64,000 nucleotides of DNA. Origin: Methylomonas methanica. GTDB taxonomy: Bacteria > Pseudomonadota > Gammaproteobacteria > Methylococcales > Methylomonadaceae. Under the pieces are notes generated by a model. It had not been told where the DNA came from, searched no databases, and was given only the letters and a program-made list of their open reading frames with translations. Location: positions 1 to 64,000 of the forward strand of contig LUUF01000103.1 of NCBI GenBank assembly GCA_001644045.1, written 5' to 3'. This document shows positions 41,907 to 53,895 of this stretch, piece after piece (positions within the stretch are counted from its first letter, which is position 1; each line of letters begins with the position of its first letter). The position numbers and the translations under genes were made by a program.

Positions 41907-43691
41907 CTACGGAACCGCGATTTTAACTTCGCAGTTAGTCGCGGTGTCGGTGCCGATGCCGCCGTCGCAGCTATCGGTACCGGCTTCGCCATTGAGGGTG
42001 TCGTTGCCGGCATCGCCTTTCAGCAGGTCTTGGTCCAGGCCGCCGCAGATGATGTCGTTATCGGCACCGCCGCTGATGGTGTCGTTACCGCTTAGGCCGT
42101 GGATAATGTCACGGCGTTTGGTACCGACCAGAGTATCCGCGCCGGGGGTGCCGACGATGGTGGGCACCAGACCGTTACACAATAGCGGCTGAACCGTAAC
42201 CGTTTGCGCGGCACTGTTATTCAGAGGTTGACTGTCGTTTTGGTCGGCAAGCACACTTACCTGACTACTCAACGTAACGGCAGCGGTGGGAACGGCTTTA
42301 ACGGTGACAATAGCGCTGGCAGTATTAGTCAGGCTACCTAAATTACAAGTAATTTTACCGCTGGCCGGCGCGCCACAACTGCCTTGCGATGCGGTTACGG
42401 AGATCGATGACAAGCCGGAGACCGGCAAGATATCGGTTAGCTTCACACCCGTGGCATTGGCTGTACCGTTATTCTTAACGACAATCGTCCAGCTCAGACT
42501 ATCGCGCACCATCGCCGGGCTGGCAGTTGTCGTAACAGCCAGATCCGCCGATACCGGAACCGCCAGTTCAAAAGCGCCAATATCACACTGTGAACCTTGC
42601 GGGCGGGCCACGCCGCGTTGATCCAGACTGCTCACCGGTACAGTCGCGCACAGCGCGTTATCGGCGGCATCAATCGCGGCGCTGCCGAGAATTAAGGCCA
42701 AGGTTTGGGTTGGGCCGCCGTTGCTGGCCAGAGTGGACGCGACGATTGCGTTGGCGTCTGCACCGGTGATATTGCCGTTGTTACCATGCAACGGCACGAT
42801 CGGACCCAAGCCGTTCCATCGATAGTAAACATCGGCGGGTAAGCCAATCAAGTTGTAGCTGGCTGTCGTTGGCGAGCCGCCGATGTCGGCTGCGCCCACG
42901 GCCGCCGTGTTACCGGCGACGATGCTATTGTGCAAATTAAGAGTACCGGCATTGTCTATACCACCGCCACTATCTTCCATCGCGCAAATGAAGCCGGGCG
43001 GGCAAACGGGCAGATGAACCGAATTGCCAACAATCGTACTGTTCAAGATAGTCGCCGAGAAGCCAAAGTTTTTAATGGCTCCGCCGAAAACCGAGCTGTT
43101 GCCTGAAAACGTGCTGTTAACCACCGTAAGATTGCCAGCCGGATTGGGATTTGCGGTGTTTGTATCCGAATAGTTAGCTATGCCGCCACCGGTGCGGGTG
43201 GCTGTATTATTGACGAAGGTGCTATTCAAAACGGTGAGACTGCCGAACTGGTTGTACACACCGCCGCCCGCCGGGTCGGCATACCCGTTGGCAACGGTCA
43301 GACTTTTTAGGGTCAATGCGGCGCCTGGTGTCACCCAAAACACGCGCACGACGTTACCACCGCTTAAGGTAACGCTACGGCCCAAGCTATCGATAGTTAG
43401 CCCATCGGCATCGGTGATAGTCAGGGTGCTGCTCAAAACGGTAGTACCGTTCACGCCAAAGGTGATGGTATCGGCACCGGTGCCGGCCGGACAATCGCCG
43501 CCGGTCGTGTCGCTATCGCTATTGGCGTTGGCCACCGCTTCGCGCAGCGTACAACTGCCGTCAGCCACAGCACTTACATCGAGCAGATTGGTAACGTTGA
43601 TCGTGTTGGCCCAGGCAGGCGAACCTACCAGCGCGGACAACACAGCCAGGGCCATGTAGTTGCCGGATGGACTGGTTTTTGAACTGTTCAT
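41907..43691 (-). CDS. Secreted beta-helix protein with CSLREA, DUF11 and RTX-like regions
   Basis: A 594-aa exported protein: signal peptide (about residues 1-28), a CSLREA-type motif (SCTLREAVANAN), a right-handed beta-helix with Pmp-like repeats (GGGVYNQFGSL, NSTFVNNTATRTGGGI, NSTFSGNSSVFGGAI; about 125-290), a DUF11 immunoglobulin-like domain (about 380-490; DLAVTTTASP, WTIVVKNNGTANATGVKLTD), and a C-terminal block of RTX-type calcium-binding nonapeptides (GLSGNDTISGG, GDAGNDTLNGE; about 510-585). RTX proteins are usually type I secretion substrates, but an N-terminal signal peptide here points to Sec export. Probably a surface or extracellular adhesin-like protein. An AAGGA ribosome-binding site precedes the ATG. 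Confidence 0.85.
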   Translation of the reverse strand: MNSSKTSPSGNYMALAVLSALVGSPAWANTINVTNLLDVSAVADGSCTLREAVANANSDSDTTGGDCPAGTGADTITFGVNGTTVLSSTLTITDADGLTIDSLGRSVTLSGGNVVRVFWVTPGAALTLKSLTVANGYADPAGGGVYNQFGSLTVLNSTFVNNTATRTGGGIANYSDTNTANPNPAGNLTVVNSTFSGNSSVFGGAIKNFGFSATILNSTIVGNSVHLPVCPPGFICAMEDSGGGIDNAGTLNLHNSIVAGNTAAVGAADIGGSPTTASYNLIGLPADVYYRWNGLGPIVPLHGNNGNITGADANAIVASTLASNGGPTQTLALILGSAAIDAADNALCATVPVSSLDQRGVARPQGSQCDIGAFELAVPVSADLAVTTTASPAMVRDSLSWTIVVKNNGTANATGVKLTDILPVSGLSSISVTASQGSCGAPASGKITCNLGSLTNTASAIVTVKAVPTAAVTLSSQVSVLADQNDSQPLNNSAAQTVTVQPLLCNGLVPTIVGTPGADTLVGTKRRDIIHGLSGNDTISGGADNDIICGGLDQDLLKGDAGNDTLNGEAGTDSCDGGIGTDTATNCEVKIAVP

Positions 43692-44050
43692 AAAATTTCC
43701 TTGGTGCTTGATTTGCCTTGGAACAAGGCTGGTGGTAATTAGTTAATCGGGATTTGAAGCGCTTAAGAGCGATGTATTCGGATCATCGTGGCCTGCTGTT
43801 TTTATGGTTAACCGTTTGCTTTCGAACGTTTCACCGGTGATTGGCTCGCGCCAAAGGGGACTCAAGCAACTTTCGGCGTTTCGCACTGGGTAATTACCTT
43901 GTTAATTACCGGAAATTAGCAAAGGTTCAACGCGGATAAAAAATTAAGCGCGGCATATTGTGATTGGCTTGTCCACCAACAGATTCGGGGTTTAACCCAA
44001 GCCGCCGAGTCGGATATACTCGGCCGCAATTGAACCTGGATTTTTTAAAC
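43692..44050. other. Intergenic region between divergent genes
   Basis: This 359-bp stretch holds the upstream regions of the beta-helix gene (minus) and hupE (plus). It contains a perfect inverted repeat GGTAATTA-N6-TAATTACC (43889-43910) and a hupE promoter candidate. No coding frame or RNA gene is evident elsewhere in it. Confidence 0.6.
43992..44020 (+). promoter_or_regulatory. Putative sigma70 promoter of the hupE gene
   Basis: TTAACC (43992-43997), a 17-nt spacer and TATACT (44015-44020) lie 30 nt upstream of the ATG. The -10 is one base from consensus; the -35 matches at four positions. Confidence 0.55.
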
Positions 44051-44752
44051 ATGACGTCCACAACCCCTGGCAAGACCTGGCTGATAGGCTTATCGCTAGT
44101 TCTATTTATAATCAGCCCCGCCGCCTTCTCCCACGGCGTCGATGCCAATACCGAACGGTTTTTGCTAGCCAACCAAGGCATCGCCATCGGCCCGTTTTTG
44201 TATATCGGCGCCAAGCACATGGTCACCGGCTACGATCATTTATTGTTTTTGGTGGGCGTGATCTTCTTTTTATTCCGCACTCGCGACGTATTGATCTATG
44301 TCAGCCTGTTCACCTTGGGACACAGCTTGACGCTGCTGTTCGGCGTACTGAGCCACATTTCGGTCAATCCATTTCTGATCGACGCCATCATCGGCCTGTC
44401 GATTGTTTACAAAGGCTTCGATAACCTGGGCGGTTTTCAGCACCTGCTGGGGTTTCAGCCCAATACCCAATGGGCGGTGATGATTTTTGGCCTGTTTCAC
44501 GGCTTTGGCTTGGCGACCAAATTGCAGGATTTTTCGCTGCCCGAAGCCGGGCTTTGGAAAAATTTGTTGGCGTTCAATGTGGGAGTAGAGATCGGCCAGT
44601 TCCTAGCCCTGCTATTTATCTTGATCGCGCTGGACTTTTGGCGCCGCCACCGCAGTTATTACGCCTTTTCCACCGCCACCAACACCTTGTTAATGTCCGG
44701 CGGCTTGATTCTATTCGGCTACCAAATCACAGGCTACATCATCCATGGATAA
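44051..44752 (+). CDS. HupE/UreJ-family membrane protein
   Basis: A 233-aa integral membrane protein with a cleavable-looking N-terminal signal (ending AFSHG) and six or so further helices. The HupE/UreJ_2 hallmarks GAKHMVTGYDHLLFLVG (His and Asp), TLGHSLTLL and GLFHGFGLA are intact. HupE and UreJ relatives are metal permeases, best known for nickel, although this subfamily is also found near heavy-metal efflux genes. The start at 44051 was chosen because an upstream frame extension lacks a signal sequence. It overlaps the next gene by 8 nt. Confidence 0.88.
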   Translation: MTSTTPGKTWLIGLSLVLFIISPAAFSHGVDANTERFLLANQGIAIGPFLYIGAKHMVTGYDHLLFLVGVIFFLFRTRDVLIYVSLFTLGHSLTLLFGVLSHISVNPFLIDAIIGLSIVYKGFDNLGGFQHLLGFQPNTQWAVMIFGLFHGFGLATKLQDFSLPEAGLWKNLLAFNVGVEIGQFLALLFILIALDFWRRHRSYYAFSTATNTLLMSGGLILFGYQITGYIIHG

Positions 44753-45414: not shown

Positions 45415-46869
45415 TTAGGGCCGAGTGGCTTTAAAAATTTGAAACCAACTCGATGCCCACTGCACTCTATCTTGAATAAACGCCGCCTTGTCGGGAAATT
45501 GTTTTACGTGATTCGGATGCCAGGGGCTCGCATCCCAGTGGGTTTTCGGCGAAATAATCCCTTTAACCGCTGGATTGGCAAAATACTGGCCGGTCAGAGC
45601 CGAGTGTTTGTCGGCTTTGTGGAATGCGGCGTTCACCAACAAAGCCGGCAAAGTGATACCCCTGGCAACTAGTCGGTTTGCCGCTAATGCAAATATTGGC
45701 TGAATCCAGGGATCGGTGTCGTGGTTCACCCAGTAACAAGCTTGCGAACCGAACGCTTCATTACTTTCTACGCCGCCCGCATGTATTTCCTTGGCTTCGC
45801 AAGCCAGATGGCGCGAGAACCCCTGGCCATCGCTGACAAATTGAGCGCGCACCACAATCATTTCGGCAAGTTGATCCTGCTCCAGTCTAATTAAAACCGC
45901 TAAATCGTCACTCCCACGGTTTGATGGCGCTTGAACGTACAGCAAACCTTGCCAGCTTCCTTCGGGCAGCGGCAGATTGGTATTGCCGATAGCGGCTTCA
46001 TCGATAAACACCTGACCGGTAATCGAATCAGTAGGGCTTTTGACCTTGCCAGCCGGCTTGCCCAATTGTGAAGTCTGCGGACTACTGTTGATGTAGAAAC
46101 GGTCGGAACGATAGGCACCCTGAAACGACGTCGGGCTAAGGCCGGTAATTACCCGTAGTTTTTCATCGGCCTGGGTATACTCTCTGGTGTCGTTTTTATA
46201 CGCATAGAAATAACCTGCTTGCCGGCGGCAGGTTTGACAAGGCGAAGAATCGCCTGAATATACATCCACCGGCACGTCTGTCGGCACGCCTTCGACGTCC
46301 TGACCGTGATAGCCGGCCAGAATGACTTTTTGCAGATTCGCGGCTTCCGCGCCAATAATCTTCCACTTGACCGGTTCATAGGCCATCAAAGCAATCACGT
46401 TCGGCACCGACGATCGAGCCAGCGTTACAGTAACGGTCTTTTGGGTGTGTTGTCCCGCATACTTCTGATGACACGCCAGCATTGCGGAGGAATTGCTTTT
46501 ATCGCCAACGCACTTGGCCCACCAGGGCTGCTCCTGCTCACCGTTGGCTGACGCACCTTCGTAGACACCGATGACATGAAGTTCCGTCCCCGGTGGGAAC
46601 CTAGCAACCGGCGGTGAGACAACGACATCGAAGGTTTCGTCATGCCAAACGCCATTGCGCGCTGTCGCGGCGGGTACCGGCGAGCTTTGGCCTGATGTTG
46701 GCGCGGCCGCCTGACCAAGCGGTTTATAGCTTGCGGAGGACTTTGCCGACGACTTAGACGGCGCATTCCATGGCCCCAATAGAATGGCCATCGCTGTCGC
46801 CAGACACGTTATAACCAAGGTCCAGCGCCAAGCGGCGGAGCGCGCCCACAGTCCTTCTTCGCTAATCAT
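45415..46869 (-). CDS. Membrane-anchored, probably periplasmic protein of unknown function
   Basis: A 484-aa protein with one N-terminal membrane helix (about residues 16-33) and a Ser/Pro/Ala-rich linker (35-70), then a large domain that should lie in the periplasm. It has a CxxC pair in SPCQTCRRQ near residue 215 and other cysteines (KCVGDK, LACHQK, ACYWVNHDTDP), suggesting disulfides or metal binding. I recognise no family. It is the last gene of a three-gene operon, 14 nt after a membrane AAA+ ATPase gene. Confidence 0.75.
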   Translation of the reverse strand: MISEEGLWARSAAWRWTLVITCLATAMAILLGPWNAPSKSSAKSSASYKPLGQAAAPTSGQSSPVPAATARNGVWHDETFDVVVSPPVARFPPGTELHVIGVYEGASANGEQEQPWWAKCVGDKSNSSAMLACHQKYAGQHTQKTVTVTLARSSVPNVIALMAYEPVKWKIIGAEAANLQKVILAGYHGQDVEGVPTDVPVDVYSGDSSPCQTCRRQAGYFYAYKNDTREYTQADEKLRVITGLSPTSFQGAYRSDRFYINSSPQTSQLGKPAGKVKSPTDSITGQVFIDEAAIGNTNLPLPEGSWQGLLYVQAPSNRGSDDLAVLIRLEQDQLAEMIVVRAQFVSDGQGFSRHLACEAKEIHAGGVESNEAFGSQACYWVNHDTDPWIQPIFALAANRLVARGITLPALLVNAAFHKADKHSALTGQYFANPAVKGIISPKTHWDASPWHPNHVKQFPDKAAFIQDRVQWASSWFQIFKATRP

Positions 46870-46883
46870 ATGCGTGTAATCGG

Positions 46884-48110
46884 TTATCCTTTAGCATAGG
46901 CAACTGCACGCTGCTGCTCATCGAGACCCAGTTCTATGCGCGCCACACCTTGCTTCTTAGCCTCGATCAACGAATCCGCCAATTGTTCTTCGATAGCCCT
47001 TACCAAATCTCGAGACGAACTGTTTTTGCCCAGTTTTCGGTATCGCGCCATCAATGTCAGGATAATTTGCGGCTCTATGCCCTGCTCGACGATTTCCAGC
47101 CCGTAGCCGCGTATCATGTCTTCAATTTCCAATGCAGCGACACGGGCAACGTCCAAGCCCTGCAATGGCCGAAACACGAAAATACGATCCAGCCGGTTTA
47201 ACACTTCAGGGGCAAACTGAGCTTCGCGTAACGCTTCAACCGCGGTAACGCGCATCGTGTCGGGATCCTGCGCATAAGTATCGGCAAGTTCCGTCAACCG
47301 GTCAGTAGCGGCATTGCTGGTCAAGACGAAGATCGCTGACGTGGTGGAAATCTGCCGGCTATCGGAGCGTTCGGTAACAAACCCGTCATTCCAAGCGGTC
47401 AGAAATGCTTTAAGCACATCGGGATGGGCCTTTTCGATTTCATCGAGCAACACGACGGCGTTTGGGGTATCGCGCAAGCCGGCCGTCAATTTGCCGTAAG
47501 AATCGGAGCCGACATAGCCTTTGGTCATGCCAAACAGTTGCGACAGGGAATAGCTACCCGACGCAAACTGCGTCATATCGAAATGCAATAAGGGCCGCTC
47601 CAGCTCTTTAGCCAGCACTTTAGCCAGATAGGTTTTCCCGGTCCCCGGCGGCCCGGCGAACATAAACACCCCCACCGGTTTTCCGCGCTGCGACAAAGCC
47701 AGCCGTCGGCGAATTTGCGAAGACATATCGTCGCAAACCGCGTCCTGGCCGATGACACGTTGCTTCAAGGCATTAGACAAGCTCTCGGCATCGATAAATG
47801 TCGCGTTGTCTTGTTCGGCCAAACCGTCTTCGATGATTTTCTTATTGGTCAGTCTATCGAGTATATCCATCAGAAGTTCCGTTTTAAGAAATGTGGGTAA
47901 TCGTGAGCGATCGTGCATCCAGGCTAATAGCAATAGCAGCCAACCGAGTGAAGCGAAGGCGACGATGTACCATACGCCGGCGCGCAGCACTGACACAACG
48001 ACAGGGATGAGCGGTGTTTTGGGCCAATGATCTTCGACGAACTGAAACAACATGACGAAGGTCATGATCGCAAATAGTGCCGGCATCCAGCGATTCAGAG
48101 TGTTAAGCAT
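46884..48110 (-). CDS. Membrane-bound AAA+ ATPase of the ClpA/ClpB type
   Basis: A 408-aa protein with two N-terminal membrane helices (about residues 9-26 and 45-63), a linker, and one AAA+ module of the Clp second-ring type: VIGQDAV (119-125), Walker A GPPGTGKT (153-160), pore-loop-like region with GYVGSDSYGKLT, Walker B VVLLDEIEKAHPDV (219-232), sensor 1 FVLTSNA, arginine finger region APEVLNRLDRIFVF, and the C-terminal small domain. Clp-type ATPases normally lack membrane helices. No ClpP-binding loop is obvious. The ATPase should face the cytoplasm. A TTG three codons upstream is an alternative start. Confidence 0.85.
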   Translation of the reverse strand: MLNTLNRWMPALFAIMTFVMLFQFVEDHWPKTPLIPVVVSVLRAGVWYIVAFASLGWLLLLLAWMHDRSRLPTFLKTELLMDILDRLTNKKIIEDGLAEQDNATFIDAESLSNALKQRVIGQDAVCDDMSSQIRRRLALSQRGKPVGVFMFAGPPGTGKTYLAKVLAKELERPLLHFDMTQFASGSYSLSQLFGMTKGYVGSDSYGKLTAGLRDTPNAVVLLDEIEKAHPDVLKAFLTAWNDGFVTERSDSRQISTTSAIFVLTSNAATDRLTELADTYAQDPDTMRVTAVEALREAQFAPEVLNRLDRIFVFRPLQGLDVARVAALEIEDMIRGYGLEIVEQGIEPQIILTLMARYRKLGKNSSSRDLVRAIEEQLADSLIEAKKQGVARIELGLDEQQRAVAYAKG

Positions 48111-48120
48111 GCCGATCAAA

Positions 48121-48765
48121 TTAAAACGACACGGGTACTGTCAGGGTTTGAGCAGCTTGCAATACCGGCAAGGAAACCATGCCTGCACCATTTTTTACAC
48201 CTAACGTAATTCCTCCGCCCCCATCATGCACACCGCTGATCTTGACGGTTTTCGACGAGTCAACAGGCACGGCGATGCGAGTCTGACTTTTTTGGAGGAC
48301 AATATCCATTTCGAATCCGGCTGACGAGACATGTACAACGTCGCCGTCAGCCGCGGCAAAATCCCATAGAGTGATCCAAACCAAACCGGTCTCGCTAACT
48401 TGTGACCTTGGCATAGCGGTTGCTGATGACGTGCTTCGATTCAACAACGCAGTTTGCAACTGTTGGCGTTGAGGAGGCTGGAGTTGCATCGAATCTAGAG
48501 CGGTATCGGTATCCTGAACAGAGACAGGTTCAACATCAATAGACTTAAGCTTGGCAAATTCCGCTACCAGCGTCGCTTGCTCTGCCTTGGAGACACTATC
48601 GCTCGACACCGTACCCCATATAGCTGTCATCCCGTAACCCAGGCCGGCAACCAACAACATTCCCGCCATAAAAAGCTTGATCTTCGACATACTCGAAGAA
48701 GCGGCGGGCTTTGGCTTTCCCGGCGATTGCGAGGCGGATTTGGGCAATGGCTCTAGATGTTTCAT
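48121..48765 (-). CDS. Single-pass membrane protein, first gene of the AAA+ operon
   Basis: A protein of about 214 aa (222 if an upstream GTG at 48789 is used; neither start has a clear ribosome-binding site). A positively charged, Ser/Pro-rich N-terminal tail is followed by one membrane helix (MAGMLLVAGLGYGMTAIWG, about residues 32-50) and a C-terminal domain that should be periplasmic, with a helical stalk and a beta-rich end (VVHVSSAGFEMDIVL, TVKISGVHDGGGGITLGV). No family recognised. It is the first of three same-strand genes with gaps of 10-14 nt. Confidence 0.72.
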   Translation of the reverse strand: MKHLEPLPKSASQSPGKPKPAASSSMSKIKLFMAGMLLVAGLGYGMTAIWGTVSSDSVSKAEQATLVAEFAKLKSIDVEPVSVQDTDTALDSMQLQPPQRQQLQTALLNRSTSSATAMPRSQVSETGLVWITLWDFAAADGDVVHVSSAGFEMDIVLQKSQTRIAVPVDSSKTVKISGVHDGGGGITLGVKNGAGMVSLPVLQAAQTLTVPVSF

Positions 48766-49055
48766 TGAACGATATTGGCGGACAGACACCTTCGCGTCTT
48801 TAGTTATAGAAAGGCATTTATCTAGGGATAATGCTATGTTCCGGCAAGTATAGACAGAATCCGATGAAAGCGTGGGCGGCTATTCATTCGCTTATTTTCG
48901 CTAATCACACCTTATTTCGGGATTTGCTTTTAAGGGCCTAAACCATGCAAAACAAAGTATTTCTTTAGTGGTTGGCAACTTGTGCCACTGTCCTTGTTTT
49001 ATTTGCCAAAGGAGTGTCTATTCTTTACAAAGCGCTTCAAGTTATATCTACCGCC

Positions 49056-50306
49056 ATGAAATCATTTTCCGTTAGCAATTCAATCGCCATCGATAGTCGC
49101 TCCCGCCGCCGCTTTCTAAAGCTGGCCGCAGCCGGCTTGGCGTCCGCCAGTATGCCGGCATCGGCGCTGTTTCGGCTGAACAATCAGTGTCTCGATCCGG
49201 CCGGTACGCCTGCCTCGGCCCTTGAAACCGCGGCCTGGCAAGGCATCAATCCGGCCGACTGGTGGGATTGCCATACCCATATAGTCGGCTCGGGCGACGG
49301 CGGTAGCGGCATTACGCAAACGCCGGATATGCACGCGCCGCTGCGGCACCCGGTGCAAACCCTGCAACATTGGGCTTACGCCAATGCGGCCTGTATTCCC
49401 GATACCGACCAAGACAATGCGTTTGTAAAACGCCTGCGCGCGTTGATGAACACCACGCCCAAGGGCGCCAAGGCCATGCTGTATGCCTTCGACCGCGCGC
49501 ACGGCGCCAGCGGCGATCCTGATCACGCCAACACGGCGTTTTTTGTCCCCAACGAATACGCCCAAAGCCTGGCCCACGCCTATCCGGAACGCTTCGAATG
49601 GGTGGCCAGCATCCATCCCTACCGCCAGGATTGCGTCAAGGTACTGGAACGAGCCGCCGCGAATGGCGCGCGGGCGGTGAAATGGCTGCCGCCGGCGATG
49701 GGCATAGACCCGGCATCCCCACAATGTGACCGGTTCTATAAGGCAGCTGCGCAATTGAATATCCCGATCATCACCCACGGCGGCGAGGAGAACGCGCTGC
49801 ACGGCGCCGACCAACCTTTGTTCGGCAATCCGCTGCGTTTGCGGCGGGCGTTGGATGCCGGCGTGCGGATCGTGATCGCCCATTGCGCCACCTTGGGCAC
49901 GGACGTGGATGGAGACGGCCGGGAAGTCAGAAGCTTTGATTTGTTTGCCAGGTTGATGGCCGAGAAGCAATGGCAGGATAGGCTGTTTGGGGATATTTCC
50001 GCGATTGTATTACGCAATCGTGACATGGAAGTGATCAAAACGCTGCTGACGGAAACAGCCTAGCATAGCCGCTTGTTGTATGGTTCGGATTATCCGCTGA
50101 CCGGGATTTTGCCGTTGATCTCGCCCGCAGCGTTTGCCAAAGCCGGCTTGCTGAGCGAAGACGCCGTCGAGCCGTTACTGGCACTTCAGGAATATCACCC
50201 CTTCCGCTTCGATTTTGTGTTGAAACGCAGCCTGGCTTGGCAAGGCAAGCGCTTTGCCGACAGCGTTTTTGCAACTCGGCCGTTTTTTACGCGTCAAAGC
50301 AGCTAA
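49056..50306 (+). pseudogene. Tat-exported amidohydrolase interrupted by an in-frame TAG
   Basis: The frame encodes a 416-codon amidohydrolase (amidohydrolase 2/ACMSD-like) with one amber codon at 50061-50063 (codon 336). It begins with a twin-arginine signal (RRRFLK at 17-22), then the metal site DCHTH (71-75), the second His in IITHGGEEN, and IVIAHCA. The metal-ligand Asp of the family lies in GSDYPL, nine codons after the TAG. The frame then continues without error to 50306. A single C-to-T change (CAG to TAG) would explain it. Without readthrough the 335-aa product lacks its catalytic Asp. Confidence 0.85.
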
Positions 50307-51498: not shown

Positions 51499-53895
51499 AT
51501 GAAAATCAAACCGCTAAGCCCGGCGCAGTTATACACGCCTTGCAAGCTCGAACAGTTACCGTTTAAGACCACCGACGAGTTGGACGATGTCGATAGCGTA
51601 TTGGGCCAGGAACGGGCGATAGCCGCGATCAAGTTTGGCATCCGTCTGGATAAACCCGGCTATAACATCTTTGCGATGGCGCCGGATGGCACCGGCAAGC
51701 TGACCACTATCAAGCAACTGGCCGAGCACGAAGCCTGTCGCCAGCCGGTACCGTCGGATTGGTGTTACGTACACAACTTCAAGCAACCGGCCAAACCCAA
51801 GGCAATCTGGCTGGAACCCGGCGAGGGCAAAGGGTTTCAAGAAGACATGGCCGAGCTGATCGACGAACTTAGCGTCGGCATTCCGGCGGCCTTTGACGGC
51901 GACGAGTACCGCTCGCGAGCCGGCGAATTGGAAAACGAATCGCGGCAGCGGGAAATCGAAGTACTGAACAAGCTGCGCGAAGAAGCCGAGCAAGCCCATA
52001 TCATTTTCACGGAAACCGCCAACGGCTACGCCTTCCTGCCGGCCAACGACGATAACGAACCTTACGCGCCGGAGCAATTCAATAAGCTGGATAAAGAGCG
52101 CCAGCACCAGTTTCACGACACCGTGCTGGCCTTGCAGGAAAAGGTGCAGGATGCGATCAAAAAATTTCCGCAATGGCGCAAGCAAACCAAGCGCAAACTG
52201 CAAGCCCTAAACCGGGAAGTGGCCGAGCTCGCGGTGCATCACTCGATAGACGATCTGAAAGACAAATACGCCAAGCACCAAGCGGTGCTGGATTATCTCA
52301 GCGCCGTGCAACAAGACATCATCGACCATGTGCGCGACTTTATTCCGCACAGCGACAAGGTACTGTCCTTCATGGAATTGCCGCAAGATCCCAATCCGTT
52401 CAAGCGCTATCAGGTCAATCTGATGGTGGATTTGAATCACAAACGCGCCGCGCCGGTGATTTGCGAGGATTTGCCCAACCACGGCAATCTGCTGGGCCGC
52501 ATCGACCACCAAGCGCAAATGGGTTCGTTGGTTACCGACTTTACCATGATCAAGCCCGGCGCATTTCATAAAGCCAACGGCGGTTACCTGATCCTGGACG
52601 CGCGCAAATTGTTATTGCAACCCTATGCCTGGGAAACCTTAAAACGCACTTTGCAAGCCGGCGAAATCCGCATCGAATCGCTGGAACGGGCGCTGAGCCT
52701 GATCAGCACTTCCTCGTTGGAACCCGAGCCTATCCCGCTGAACATCAAGGTCATCCTGCTCGGCGATCCGCTGCTGTATTACCTGTTGAGTTTTTACGAC
52801 CCCGAGTTTCAGGACTTCTTCAAAGTCGCCGCGGACTTTGCCGGCCACGTCGACCGCGAGCACAACAGCCTGGAATACGCCCGGCTACTGGCGACTATCG
52901 CGCGCCGGGAAAAACTGCGGCCGCTCAGCCAGCAAGCCGTGGCCCGCATCATCGAGCACAGCGCGCGGATGGCCGACGATTCGGAAAAACTGCTCACTCA
53001 TCTGCGCAGTATCAAGGATTTACTGACCGAAGCCGATTACTGGGCCGGCGAAAACGGCCATACCGTGATCGCCAATAGCGATGTGCAGCAAGCCATCGAC
53101 GAAAAAAATCACCGGCTGGACCGAATCCGCGAACGACTTTACGAAACCATTCAGCGCGGCACCATCATGATCGCCACCGAAGACAAGGTCGTCGGCCAGA
53201 TCAACGGCTTGTCGGTCTTGCAACTGGGCGAATTCAGTTTCGGCCAGCCGTCGCGGATCACCGCCACCACCCGCATGGGCAACGGCAAGGTGGTGGACAT
53301 CGAACGGGAAACCGAGCTGGGCGGCGCGATTCATTCCAAAGGCGTGCTGATTTTGTCCAGCTTTATCGCCTCTCGCTACGCCCGTACCCGGCCGTTTTCG
53401 CTGGCCGCCAGCCTGGTGTTCGAGCAATCCTACGGCCACGTGGAAGGCGATAGCGCGTCGCTGGCGGAGTTGTGCGCGATCCTGTCTTCGCTGGCGCAAG
53501 TGCCGCTACGCCAGGATCTGGCGATGACCGGCTCGGTGAATCAGCTTGGCCAGGTGCAACCTATCGGCGGCGTGAATGAAAAAATCGAAGGCTTTTTCGA
53601 CATTTGCGCGGCTCGTGGTCTGAGCGGCAGCCAGGGCGTGATCATCCCGGCCAGCAATATCCCGCATTTAATGCTGCGTTGGGATGTGGTGCATGCCGCG
53701 CAAGCCGGGCAGTTCCATATTTATCAGGTCGCCACGGTCGATGATGCACTGGGTTTATTGAGTGACATGGACGTAGGCATGGCAGACGCGCAAGGCCAAT
53801 TTCCAGGCGATTCGTTCAACGGCAAAATCGACGCACAGTTGCAGCAATTTACCAGCTTGGTCAAGGAGTTTGCGGCTAAAGCAGACGGCAAATGA
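51499..53895 (+). CDS. Lon-like ATP-dependent protease
   Basis: A 798-aa AAA+ protease of the Lon-like (COG1067, LonB/LonC-type) group. An N-terminal AAA region with the loop APDGTGKLTTIK (about residues 55-66) is followed by a long helical insertion (140-280) and a C-terminal S16 protease domain. The Ser-Lys dyad is Ser652 (EGDSASL) and Lys695 (NEKIEGF), 43 residues apart as in E. coli Lon. No membrane helices or N-terminal LAN domain are seen. Likely cytosolic protein quality control. Confidence 0.9.
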   Translation: MKIKPLSPAQLYTPCKLEQLPFKTTDELDDVDSVLGQERAIAAIKFGIRLDKPGYNIFAMAPDGTGKLTTIKQLAEHEACRQPVPSDWCYVHNFKQPAKPKAIWLEPGEGKGFQEDMAELIDELSVGIPAAFDGDEYRSRAGELENESRQREIEVLNKLREEAEQAHIIFTETANGYAFLPANDDNEPYAPEQFNKLDKERQHQFHDTVLALQEKVQDAIKKFPQWRKQTKRKLQALNREVAELAVHHSIDDLKDKYAKHQAVLDYLSAVQQDIIDHVRDFIPHSDKVLSFMELPQDPNPFKRYQVNLMVDLNHKRAAPVICEDLPNHGNLLGRIDHQAQMGSLVTDFTMIKPGAFHKANGGYLILDARKLLLQPYAWETLKRTLQAGEIRIESLERALSLISTSSLEPEPIPLNIKVILLGDPLLYYLLSFYDPEFQDFFKVAADFAGHVDREHNSLEYARLLATIARREKLRPLSQQAVARIIEHSARMADDSEKLLTHLRSIKDLLTEADYWAGENGHTVIANSDVQQAIDEKNHRLDRIRERLYETIQRGTIMIATEDKVVGQINGLSVLQLGEFSFGQPSRITATTRMGNGKVVDIERETELGGAIHSKGVLILSSFIASRYARTRPFSLAASLVFEQSYGHVEGDSASLAELCAILSSLAQVPLRQDLAMTGSVNQLGQVQPIGGVNEKIEGFFDICAARGLSGSQGVIIPASNIPHLMLRWDVVHAAQAGQFHIYQVATVDDALGLLSDMDVGMADAQGQFPGDSFNGKIDAQLQQFTSLVKEFAAKADGK

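Follow-up and report, generated by a model that had tools for sequence, protein, structure and literature searches.

Three genes, here called A, B and C, follow one another in the same direction along the minus strand of a contig of Methylomonas methanica (GenBank assembly GCA_001644045.1, contig LUUF01000103.1, positions 1 to 64,000; this whole stretch of 64,000 nucleotides (nt) is referred to below as the window). Taken as the longest open reading frames (ORFs), A, B and C occupy 48121-48789, 46884-48119 and 45415-46869, and they form a putative operon that encodes a membrane-anchored AAA+ ATPase together with two single-pass proteins. An earlier note on this DNA had drawn attention to the three-gene layout; the layout is real and that observation is confirmed. 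The genes are:

48121..48765, minus strand: gene A, single-pass protein, 214 amino acids (aa) from the ATG, 222 aa from a GTG at 48789
46884..48110, minus strand: gene B, membrane-anchored ClpB-D2-type AAA+ ATPase, 408 aa from the ATG, 411 aa from a TTG at 48119
45415..46869, minus strand: gene C, single-pass protein of 484 aa with a large outer domain

Judged from its orthologs at the loci L042 and L055, gene A probably starts at the ATG at 48765, and the first ATG of B, at 48110, is the start position of the B orthologs of the same two loci. The longest-ORF starts leave gaps of 1 nt (A-B) and 14 nt (B-C); with the ATG starts for A and B the gaps become 10 and 14 nt, which bears out the spacing of 10-14 nt that had been given for this operon. 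Of 20 loci measured, 13 have A-B/B-C junctions of -1/-4 and one has -4/-4; two have -4/+10 and -4/+12, and the last four, which include the window, range from +1 to +15. Overlaps of 1-4 nt at both junctions are thus found at 14 of the 20; all these figures depend on starts chosen by the analyst, some of which were picked to overlap the preceding gene. Scans for transcription signals gave four promoter-like sites versus 3.4 in shuffled sequence and three terminator-like sites versus 5.0.

The product of gene B contains one ClpB-D2-type module, matched by Pfam AAA_2 at residues 147-312 (E=6e-36). Its best NCBIfam match is ClpB (E=2.5e-49, 168 bits versus a cut-off of 1232), and this match covers only profile positions 559-849 of 853. 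Residues ~112-386 of B match the second modules of Clp/Hsp100 proteins, the matching Clp/Hsp100 chains of the PDB begin between its residues 82 and 115, and it shares 34-39% identity with three long open frames of Clp type found elsewhere in this genome. Ahead of the AAA module, hydropathy reveals hydrophobic segments at residues 11-29 and 37-68; of the 22 aligned B proteins, 15 have two separate regions above a simple hydrophobicity threshold and seven have one. (This alignment consists of the window and 21 loci; L057, G013, G035, G791 and a Microvirga plasmid copy stand outside it.) The family, PDB and hydropathy evidence agrees with the earlier description of a ClpB-type AAA+ module with two N-terminal membrane helices. 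The features of B, all in the numbering of the 411-aa frame, are:

48033..48089, minus strand: first transmembrane (TM) segment of B, residues 11-29, by hydropathy
47916..47972, minus strand: second TM segment of B, about residues 50-68 within the hydrophobic stretch 37-68, by hydropathy
47844..47870, minus strand: juxtamembrane motif MDILDRLTN, residues 84-92, between the second TM segment and the AAA core
47631..47654, minus strand: Walker A, GPPGTGKT, residues 156-163; G156, P157, G159, G161, K162 and T163 invariant in 22 of 22
47508..47522, minus strand: pore loop, KGYVG, residues 200-204; K200, G201, Y202 and G204 invariant in 22 of 22
47439..47456, minus strand: Walker B, VVLLDE, residues 222-227; V223, L224, L225, D226 and E227 invariant in 22 of 22

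N269, R309 and R370 are also invariant in the 22 proteins, and the pore loop aligns with the GYVG of ClpC and ClpE; the functional names that we give to such residues (sensors, arginine finger) follow this ClpC/ClpE alignment and what we take to be their usual roles. B thus has the AAA_2 core, the motifs and the pore loop of the Hsp100/Clp D2-type AAA+ ATPases, and on these grounds it should be an active, threading-type ATPase. The juxtamembrane motif is better conserved than the AAA core: mean pairwise identity across the 22 proteins is 0.90 in MDILDRLTN, 0.76 in the AAA core and 0.36 in the TM region.

The two partners belong to no named family in the libraries searched. Neither A nor C of the window gave a Pfam, NCBIfam or PADLOC match at E<=1 or a PHROGs match at E<=0.01, Foldseek searches of the PDB with the two AlphaFold models gave nothing at E<=0.001, and Pfam scans of the 20 aligned orthologs of each gene found no family in more than one member (best E 0.013 for A and 0.15 for C). 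The GntR/UTRA-like and betaglycan folds listed among the 50 best structural matches of C were set aside, since their TM-scores do not exceed 0.18 when normalized by query length or 0.48 when normalized by target length. The model of A (mean predicted local distance difference test score, pLDDT, 81) consists of a TM helix, helices between residues 68 and 121 and a beta domain; that of C is less certain (mean pLDDT 68), and within its last 200 residues the ten-residue blocks mostly score 75-90, a few of them 58-69. The features of the partners are:

48619..48675, minus strand: TM segment of A, residues 39-57 of the 222-aa ORF by hydropathy; AlphaFold helix 36-53
48127..48387, minus strand: beta-rich domain of A, predicted periplasmic, residues 135-221; AlphaFold block with pLDDT 88-97
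46825..46851, minus strand: juxtamembrane tail of C, LWARSAAWR, predicted cytoplasmic, residues 7-15
46777..46833, minus strand: TM segment of C, residues 13-31 by hydropathy; AlphaFold helix 12-31
46018..46644, minus strand: inserted domain of C, residues 76-284
45418..46017, minus strand: conserved C-terminal domain of C, predicted periplasmic, residues 285-484

It is the short tail of C, with the consensus LWxRAPxWR and not mentioned in the earlier note, that is best preserved. L7, R10, W14 and R15 are invariant in the 20 aligned C proteins and W8 is nearly so; only seven columns are invariant in the whole alignment, and four of them fall within these nine residues. Mean pairwise identity reaches 0.72 over residues 7-15, as against 0.32 for the TM segment and 0.38 for the C-terminal domain. 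The conserved Arg beside the TM segment stands 15-25 residues from the N-terminus in all 20. The inserted domain, by comparison, is absent from 16 of the 20 and present only in three Methylomonas rows and L043, and it has partial relatives in the genomes G084, G014 and G025. At three further loci, outside the 20-row alignment, B is followed by small C-like proteins, six in all: three at L056 (3700-5570), two at L057 (4900-6060) and one at L061 (11270-11801). Read by eye, all six have LWxxAPxWR and a hydrophobic stretch joined to another, short outer domain. Since the tail and TM segment are kept while the outer domain is swapped, it would be the tail and TM segment, not the outer domain, that follow B.

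A DNA pattern for the tail gave 11 matches in the same genome versus 15 for a control, and none of the four inspected among the 10 matches outside the operon resembled a tailed membrane protein (two lay in short open frames of 50 and 87 residues, and two had no open frame of at least 30 residues through the motif). The C profile found only the operon copy in 13 named genomes, split into two pieces in two of them.

Both partners had been described as single-pass proteins with large domains that should be periplasmic. The first part holds, with one TM-like segment each in A and C; periplasmic placement is probable for the domain of C. The outer domain of C is probably periplasmic because its untailed relatives carry what appear by eye to be export signals, a Sec signal in a second copy in G791 and a lipoprotein signal in the relative in G694. 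For A, the net charge around the segment favours an N-in orientation in 16 of 20 proteins.

From this evidence we put at about an even chance the proposal that A, B and C form a self-contained inner-membrane AAA+ machine, driven by ATP and equipped with periplasmic partners. B would form a ring, presumably a hexamer, which its two N-terminal helices tether to the membrane on the cytoplasmic side and which runs the ATPase cycle of an Hsp100 D2 module without an obvious ClpP-docking loop. C would plug sideways into this ring through its cytoplasmic tail LWxRAPxWR, set opposite MDILDRLTN of B, and its domain would act in the periplasm; A, with another periplasmic domain and its helical stretch, would serve as brace or regulator. 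ATP-driven movement of the ring might then alter the conformation or assembly of the periplasmic partners. We infer that the tail of C docks on MDILDRLTN because the two motifs, as placed by the predicted topology, would lie opposite one another where the membrane borders the cytoplasm.

The same tail lends itself to a different reading, in which B is a dislocase that grips the N-terminal tail of C (perhaps also that of A) and extracts this single-pass client in the manner of Msp1 or FtsH, a removal from the membrane that would end the client's periplasmic activity on demand. B has the intact GYVG pore loop and Hsp100 core for such a task, and candidate single-pass clients with a conserved tail are encoded next door. 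But the tail of C is short (15-25 residues) and its conserved residues lie against the membrane, not at a free end, whereas Hsp100 pores usually need a longer loose end; large folded periplasmic domains, moreover, would be poor substrates for extraction. On balance we regard a dislocase as rather improbable.

The distribution of the three genes counts in favour of the self-contained machine. B was found in 27 genomes, belonging to Methylomonas, other Beta-, Gamma- and Alphaproteobacteria and one Acidobacteriaceae metagenome-assembled genome (MAG), and the order A-B-C is present in 23 of them (five Methylomonas, 17 loci of a genomic-contig scan and G791), so that the conserved co-occurrence which the earlier note had wished to see checked is indeed found. 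Among 101 relatives, five genomes have a B ortholog at E<=1e-200 (the next best match is at 8.6e-42), and all five belong to the same genus, of which 37 genomes were examined; full-length C is present in the same five, and three other genomes match only parts of it between residues 94 and 269. The operon occupies three different gene contexts among five Methylomonas genomes. The genomic-contig scan, made with two short peptide patterns, gave 22 loci at 52-83% identity; it detects only relatives that carry those peptides and says nothing on absence elsewhere. Two of the 22 duplicate known loci (L055 is the G021 locus and L042 the G026 locus). Each of the 22 carries B together with a frame that is at least C-like, and A is present in 19. 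Their hosts include Burkholderia, Paraburkholderia, Trinickia, Collimonas, Dyella, Pseudomonas, Rhodocyclales, Acetobacter and Lichenicoccus, as well as a Xanthobacteraceae MAG and the Acidobacteriaceae MAG, with the proviso that a MAG contig can be misbinned.

In a phylum sample of 398 genomes, B was found in two (G000 and G791, at E<=1e-90, with the top few candidates per genome scored), and G791 also carries A-B-C. The A profile matched four genomes of this sample (G000, G791, G838 and G421) and the C profile likewise four (G000, G791, G694 and G515); the match in G515, to the tail of C, was judged to be chance, as a 92-residue frame opposite a longer ORF. Short, weak C matches in G301 and G112, obtained with a five-row Methylomonas C alignment in a class sample of 369 genomes, were dropped, and with broader profiles these stretches yielded nothing at E<=0.1 for any of the three genes. 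Throughout the phylum searches the tailed C was seen only with B; untailed C domains occur elsewhere, and two A-like genes (G838 and G421) lie away from B. The A-like and C-like outer domains have, in short, a wider life than the operon. The earlier note would have given up its proposal had the partners occurred without the ATPase in most genomes; in the phylum searches they mostly did not, the tailed C having been seen only with B.

Pairwise distances of the three genes over 190 locus pairs correlate at 0.91 (A-B), 0.95 (B-C) and 0.89 (A-C), with shared ancestry left in, and this is the expectation for genes that are inherited together. The proportion of nonsynonymous differences (pN) is lower than that of synonymous differences (pS) in all 21 pairwise comparisons, seven per gene (for example, 0.05-0.21 versus 0.51-0.83 in B); many of the values of dS, the synonymous divergence, are saturated, and only the direction of pN versus pS was used. 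With its recurring order, its frequent overlaps and pN below pS, the A-B-C layout is more than a chance arrangement; it is kept across distant taxa and is under purifying selection. Frames are broken in two of the 23 loci, A of G035 (L036, 10648-11291) and C of L051 (11251-12236). A sequencing error is possible in both, and the near-identical G021 locus has an intact A.

Several observations weigh against the self-contained machine. As to topology, a hydrophobic segment over the threshold is found near the N-terminus of 17 of the 20 C proteins and the charge favours N-in in 12 of these 17; in the window itself the charge of C opposes N-in, with -1 before the segment and +2 after it. As to the parts list, three of the 27 genomes (L056, L057 and L061) have B with one to three of the small C-like proteins and no A, and in one, the Microvirga plasmid, both A and C are missing beside B. 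As to the proposed contact, Arg10 of the tail is retained in just one of the six small C-like proteins. The lone Microvirga B carries LDLLDRYTN at the motif site, so MDILDRLTN, largely kept here without an adjoining A or C, may serve B itself, and the linker between TM segment and AAA module of FtsH, which is conserved and essential, occupies an equivalent place (PMC7949044). The association of an A-like gene with another AAA protein in G838 was absent from 100 other genomes of its family searched with the A profile.

Some of these same loci would suit a reading in which A and C are sensors or adaptors that pass periplasmic signals to B, as LAP1 does for torsin, and B acts on cytosolic or membrane substrates. 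Variable outer domains on a constant tail are suited to sensing, B can occur without either partner alongside (Microvirga), and in G838 an A-like gene stands beside two AAA proteins, one of which is a two-TM protein other than B. B, however, keeps its arginine finger and sensors and would have no need of completion in the LAP1 style, and no recurrent substrate gene was found in 110 neighbouring ORFs at 19 loci (best 25 of 151 Pfam families). We give this reading perhaps one chance in five.

The partnerless and rearranged loci deserve a brief description. In G838 the A-like gene precedes the other two-TM AAA protein, which matches the B profile only at E=0.00038, and an AAA_lid_6-type AAA; A-like proteins may work with membrane AAA proteins of more than one sort, although this arrangement was seen in a single genome among 101 of its family. 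The locus (L077, G838:C20, 7842-10831, minus strand) shows an altered Walker B region in the two-TM AAA, and nearby ORFs resemble, by eye, a VirD4-type coupling protein and a methylase. The A of G421 has no B-profile match within ~9 kb on either side; it lies at L078 (G421:C1, 9571-10209), near opposite-strand ORFs that look by eye to be of the TIR and FGE-sulfatase types. The lone B relative of the Microvirga plasmid pMVF16-3 (L086, 7770-9008) adjoins a gene that looks ASCH-type by eye.

The surroundings of the operon give little hint of a cargo or of a wider system. No family has more than four members (FBPase and PD40) among those listed for the 110 neighbouring ORFs at the 19 loci, a survey that used a crude ORF caller and covered the best 25 of 47 PADLOC families and the best 25 of 151 Pfam families. 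This bears upon the idea of a small device for export or assembly, in which B pushes or threads a cytosolic client towards the membrane and A and C receive it, much as Bcs1 moves the folded Rieske protein. A membrane-anchored AAA module with probable periplasmic partners is what such a device would need, and Bcs1 is reported to show that a membrane AAA protein can translocate a folded domain (PMC12219900, PMC10567702). Against it stand the lack of a channel gene in the operon and of a recurrent client gene alongside (among the families listed), and the nature of B, which is of the Hsp100-D2 type, with no Bcs1 among the best 25 of its 32 Pfam families. We hold an export device to be quite unlikely; among the three jobs envisaged for the machine in the earlier note (unfolding, secretion and assembly), secretion is the least supported because no export channel is encoded.

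A role in anti-phage defence, as a relative of the Dodola system, is more doubtful still. PADLOC's DolB model does match B weakly (E=6.6e-22), and the distribution is patchy (five of 101 relatives and two of 398 phylum genomes). The DolB score of 76 bits, however, is far under the 168 bits of ClpB, and A and C are without any PADLOC match at the threshold given above. Nor was a defence island apparent: the neighbouring ORFs show no enrichment among the families listed. The best 25 of the 47 PADLOC families there include helicase models of the GajB and DRT types, each with a single member and presumably both hitting the same UvrD-type helicase, together with the models mad2 and mad3, which have two members each.

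The origin of the operon was sought in mobile elements. Four viral-contig scans gave no A, B or C ortholog, and a phage origin was rejected; the scan with the 22-row B alignment yielded eight loci at 30-34% identity over about residues 113-388, which are generic Clp proteins. A plasmid search with B returned 1914 records, of which, among the 20 listed, the Microvirga copy is 48% identical and the rest are below 35%; the plasmid search with C gave no match. The G+C content, overall and at third codon positions, of A, B and C lies within ~1.5 standard deviations of that of 32 other window genes, hence no sign of recent foreign origin. Whether the operon had recently entered an empty site was judged from two flanking genes, the one next to A on its upstream side (48972-50063) and the second one past C (43964-44752), which were sought in the 37 genus genomes. 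None of the operon-less genomes with both flanks showed a clean empty site: in G011, G024, G025 and G036 the two flanks share a contig but at a long distance, and in G006, G028, G029 and G031 they fall on separate contigs, which means little in drafts. Two other genes near the operon may be mentioned. A large ORF (51499-53895) looks by eye like a Lon-type AAA+ protease; a similar ORF is near the operon in G013 (L033) and not in the stretches of G021, G026 and G035. The ORF at 41907-43691 encodes a protein that looks secreted and carries DUF11 as well as RTX calcium-binding repeats; it, too, is conserved near the operon in G013.

The self-contained, ATP-driven machine is thus the reading that we prefer; it and its rivals partly overlap, and their chances need not add up to one. 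A broader version may be ventured, in which a membrane-tethered Hsp100-type ring offers a standard socket, MDILDRLTN, to single-pass proteins that bear the short tag LWxRAPxWR, so that periplasmic domains can be exchanged or multiplied, and which would make these loci an undescribed class of motor. This generalization is tentative, and we consider it unlikely as it stands; if true, one cytosolic ATPase would drive different periplasmic tools. The periplasm has no ATP, and the routes that pass ATP-derived force through the inner membrane (ABC transporters and the type II/IV motors) are, to our knowledge, small in number and have been studied well. A three-gene AAA+ system as compact as this one, conserved across Proteobacteria and with two families of partners that match nothing in Pfam, would add a testable route for such force, and the tail and socket motifs supply residues that can be mutated at once.

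How, then, does the trio compare with the systems already known? That it matches no named system, as the earlier note had supposed, holds for the family libraries and the open-access papers searched, in which no paper describing an A-B-C trio was found; most subscription papers and bioRxiv preprints lie outside that scope. The portions covered of PMC8926400, PMC11237479, PMC11514479 and PMC7949044 give no account of it.

Several candidate assignments were rejected. Like the D2 module of ClpB and Hsp104, B has Walker A and B, sensor 1, an arginine finger, sensor 2 and a GYVG pore loop. Unlike these proteins, it is without the N-domain, D1 and middle domain and has instead two N-terminal TM helices and two operon partners; its 411 aa hold one module only, and it was not assigned to the disaggregases of that type. 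Nor was it assigned to the ClpP unfoldases such as ClpA, ClpC and ClpX: we take the ClpP-docking loop to be of the IGF/IGL type and expect it within residues 262-312, where [ILV]G[FLM] occurs in only one of the 22 B proteins, as a VGF in L051 that is probably chance, many others reading AGF or SGF there. The type VI secretion ATPase ClpV/TssH scores 141.6 bits versus a cut-off of 885, with no type VI secretion family among the best 25 of the 151 neighbour Pfam families. MoxR-vWA pairs are alike in joining an AAA+ protein to an operon partner; their AAA clade differs (bpMoxR, 21.7 versus a cut-off of 27). From Dodola (DolA/DolB) the trio takes a weak DolB match, and it differs in having no DolA match, two other partners and a membrane-anchored ATPase.

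Three membrane-associated systems may be compared as well. FtsH shares with B the two N-terminal TM segments, a single AAA+ module and a conserved linker from the second TM segment to that module. It differs in the zinc metalloprotease domain that follows its AAA module and that B lacks, in that B has a Clp/Hsp100 D2-type AAA and in the short loop between the TM segments of B; B ends ~100 residues after the AAA core, and the NCBIfam FtsH match (residues 148-179) reaches 19.5 bits versus 600, so B was not assigned to FtsH. Bcs1 is likewise a membrane-anchored single AAA+ module, and it handles a single-pass protein with a far-side domain. The trio differs in belonging to another AAA clade, in being bacterial, in keeping its partners in one operon and in the two TM segments of B, where Bcs1 has one; no match to the BCS1 N-terminal domain is among the best 25 of the 32 Pfam families of B. 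Torsin, finally, is an Hsp100-related single module that works with the single-pass partners LAP1 and LULL1, and in this B, with its own single-pass partners and a marginal Pfam Torsin match (27.0 bits at a cut-off of 27), resembles it. Torsin is a lumenal ATPase that lacks the arginine finger and is completed by an AAA-like partner. The AAA module of B is, however, predicted to be cytosolic and has its own arginine finger (R309, invariant in the 22 B proteins), and A and C match no AAA family, no AAA title being among the 50 PDB matches listed for C; an arrangement of the torsin-LAP1 type was accordingly rejected. The superfamily to which the ATPase belongs is already known; what is new here is the conserved tail of C and the juxtamembrane motif of B.

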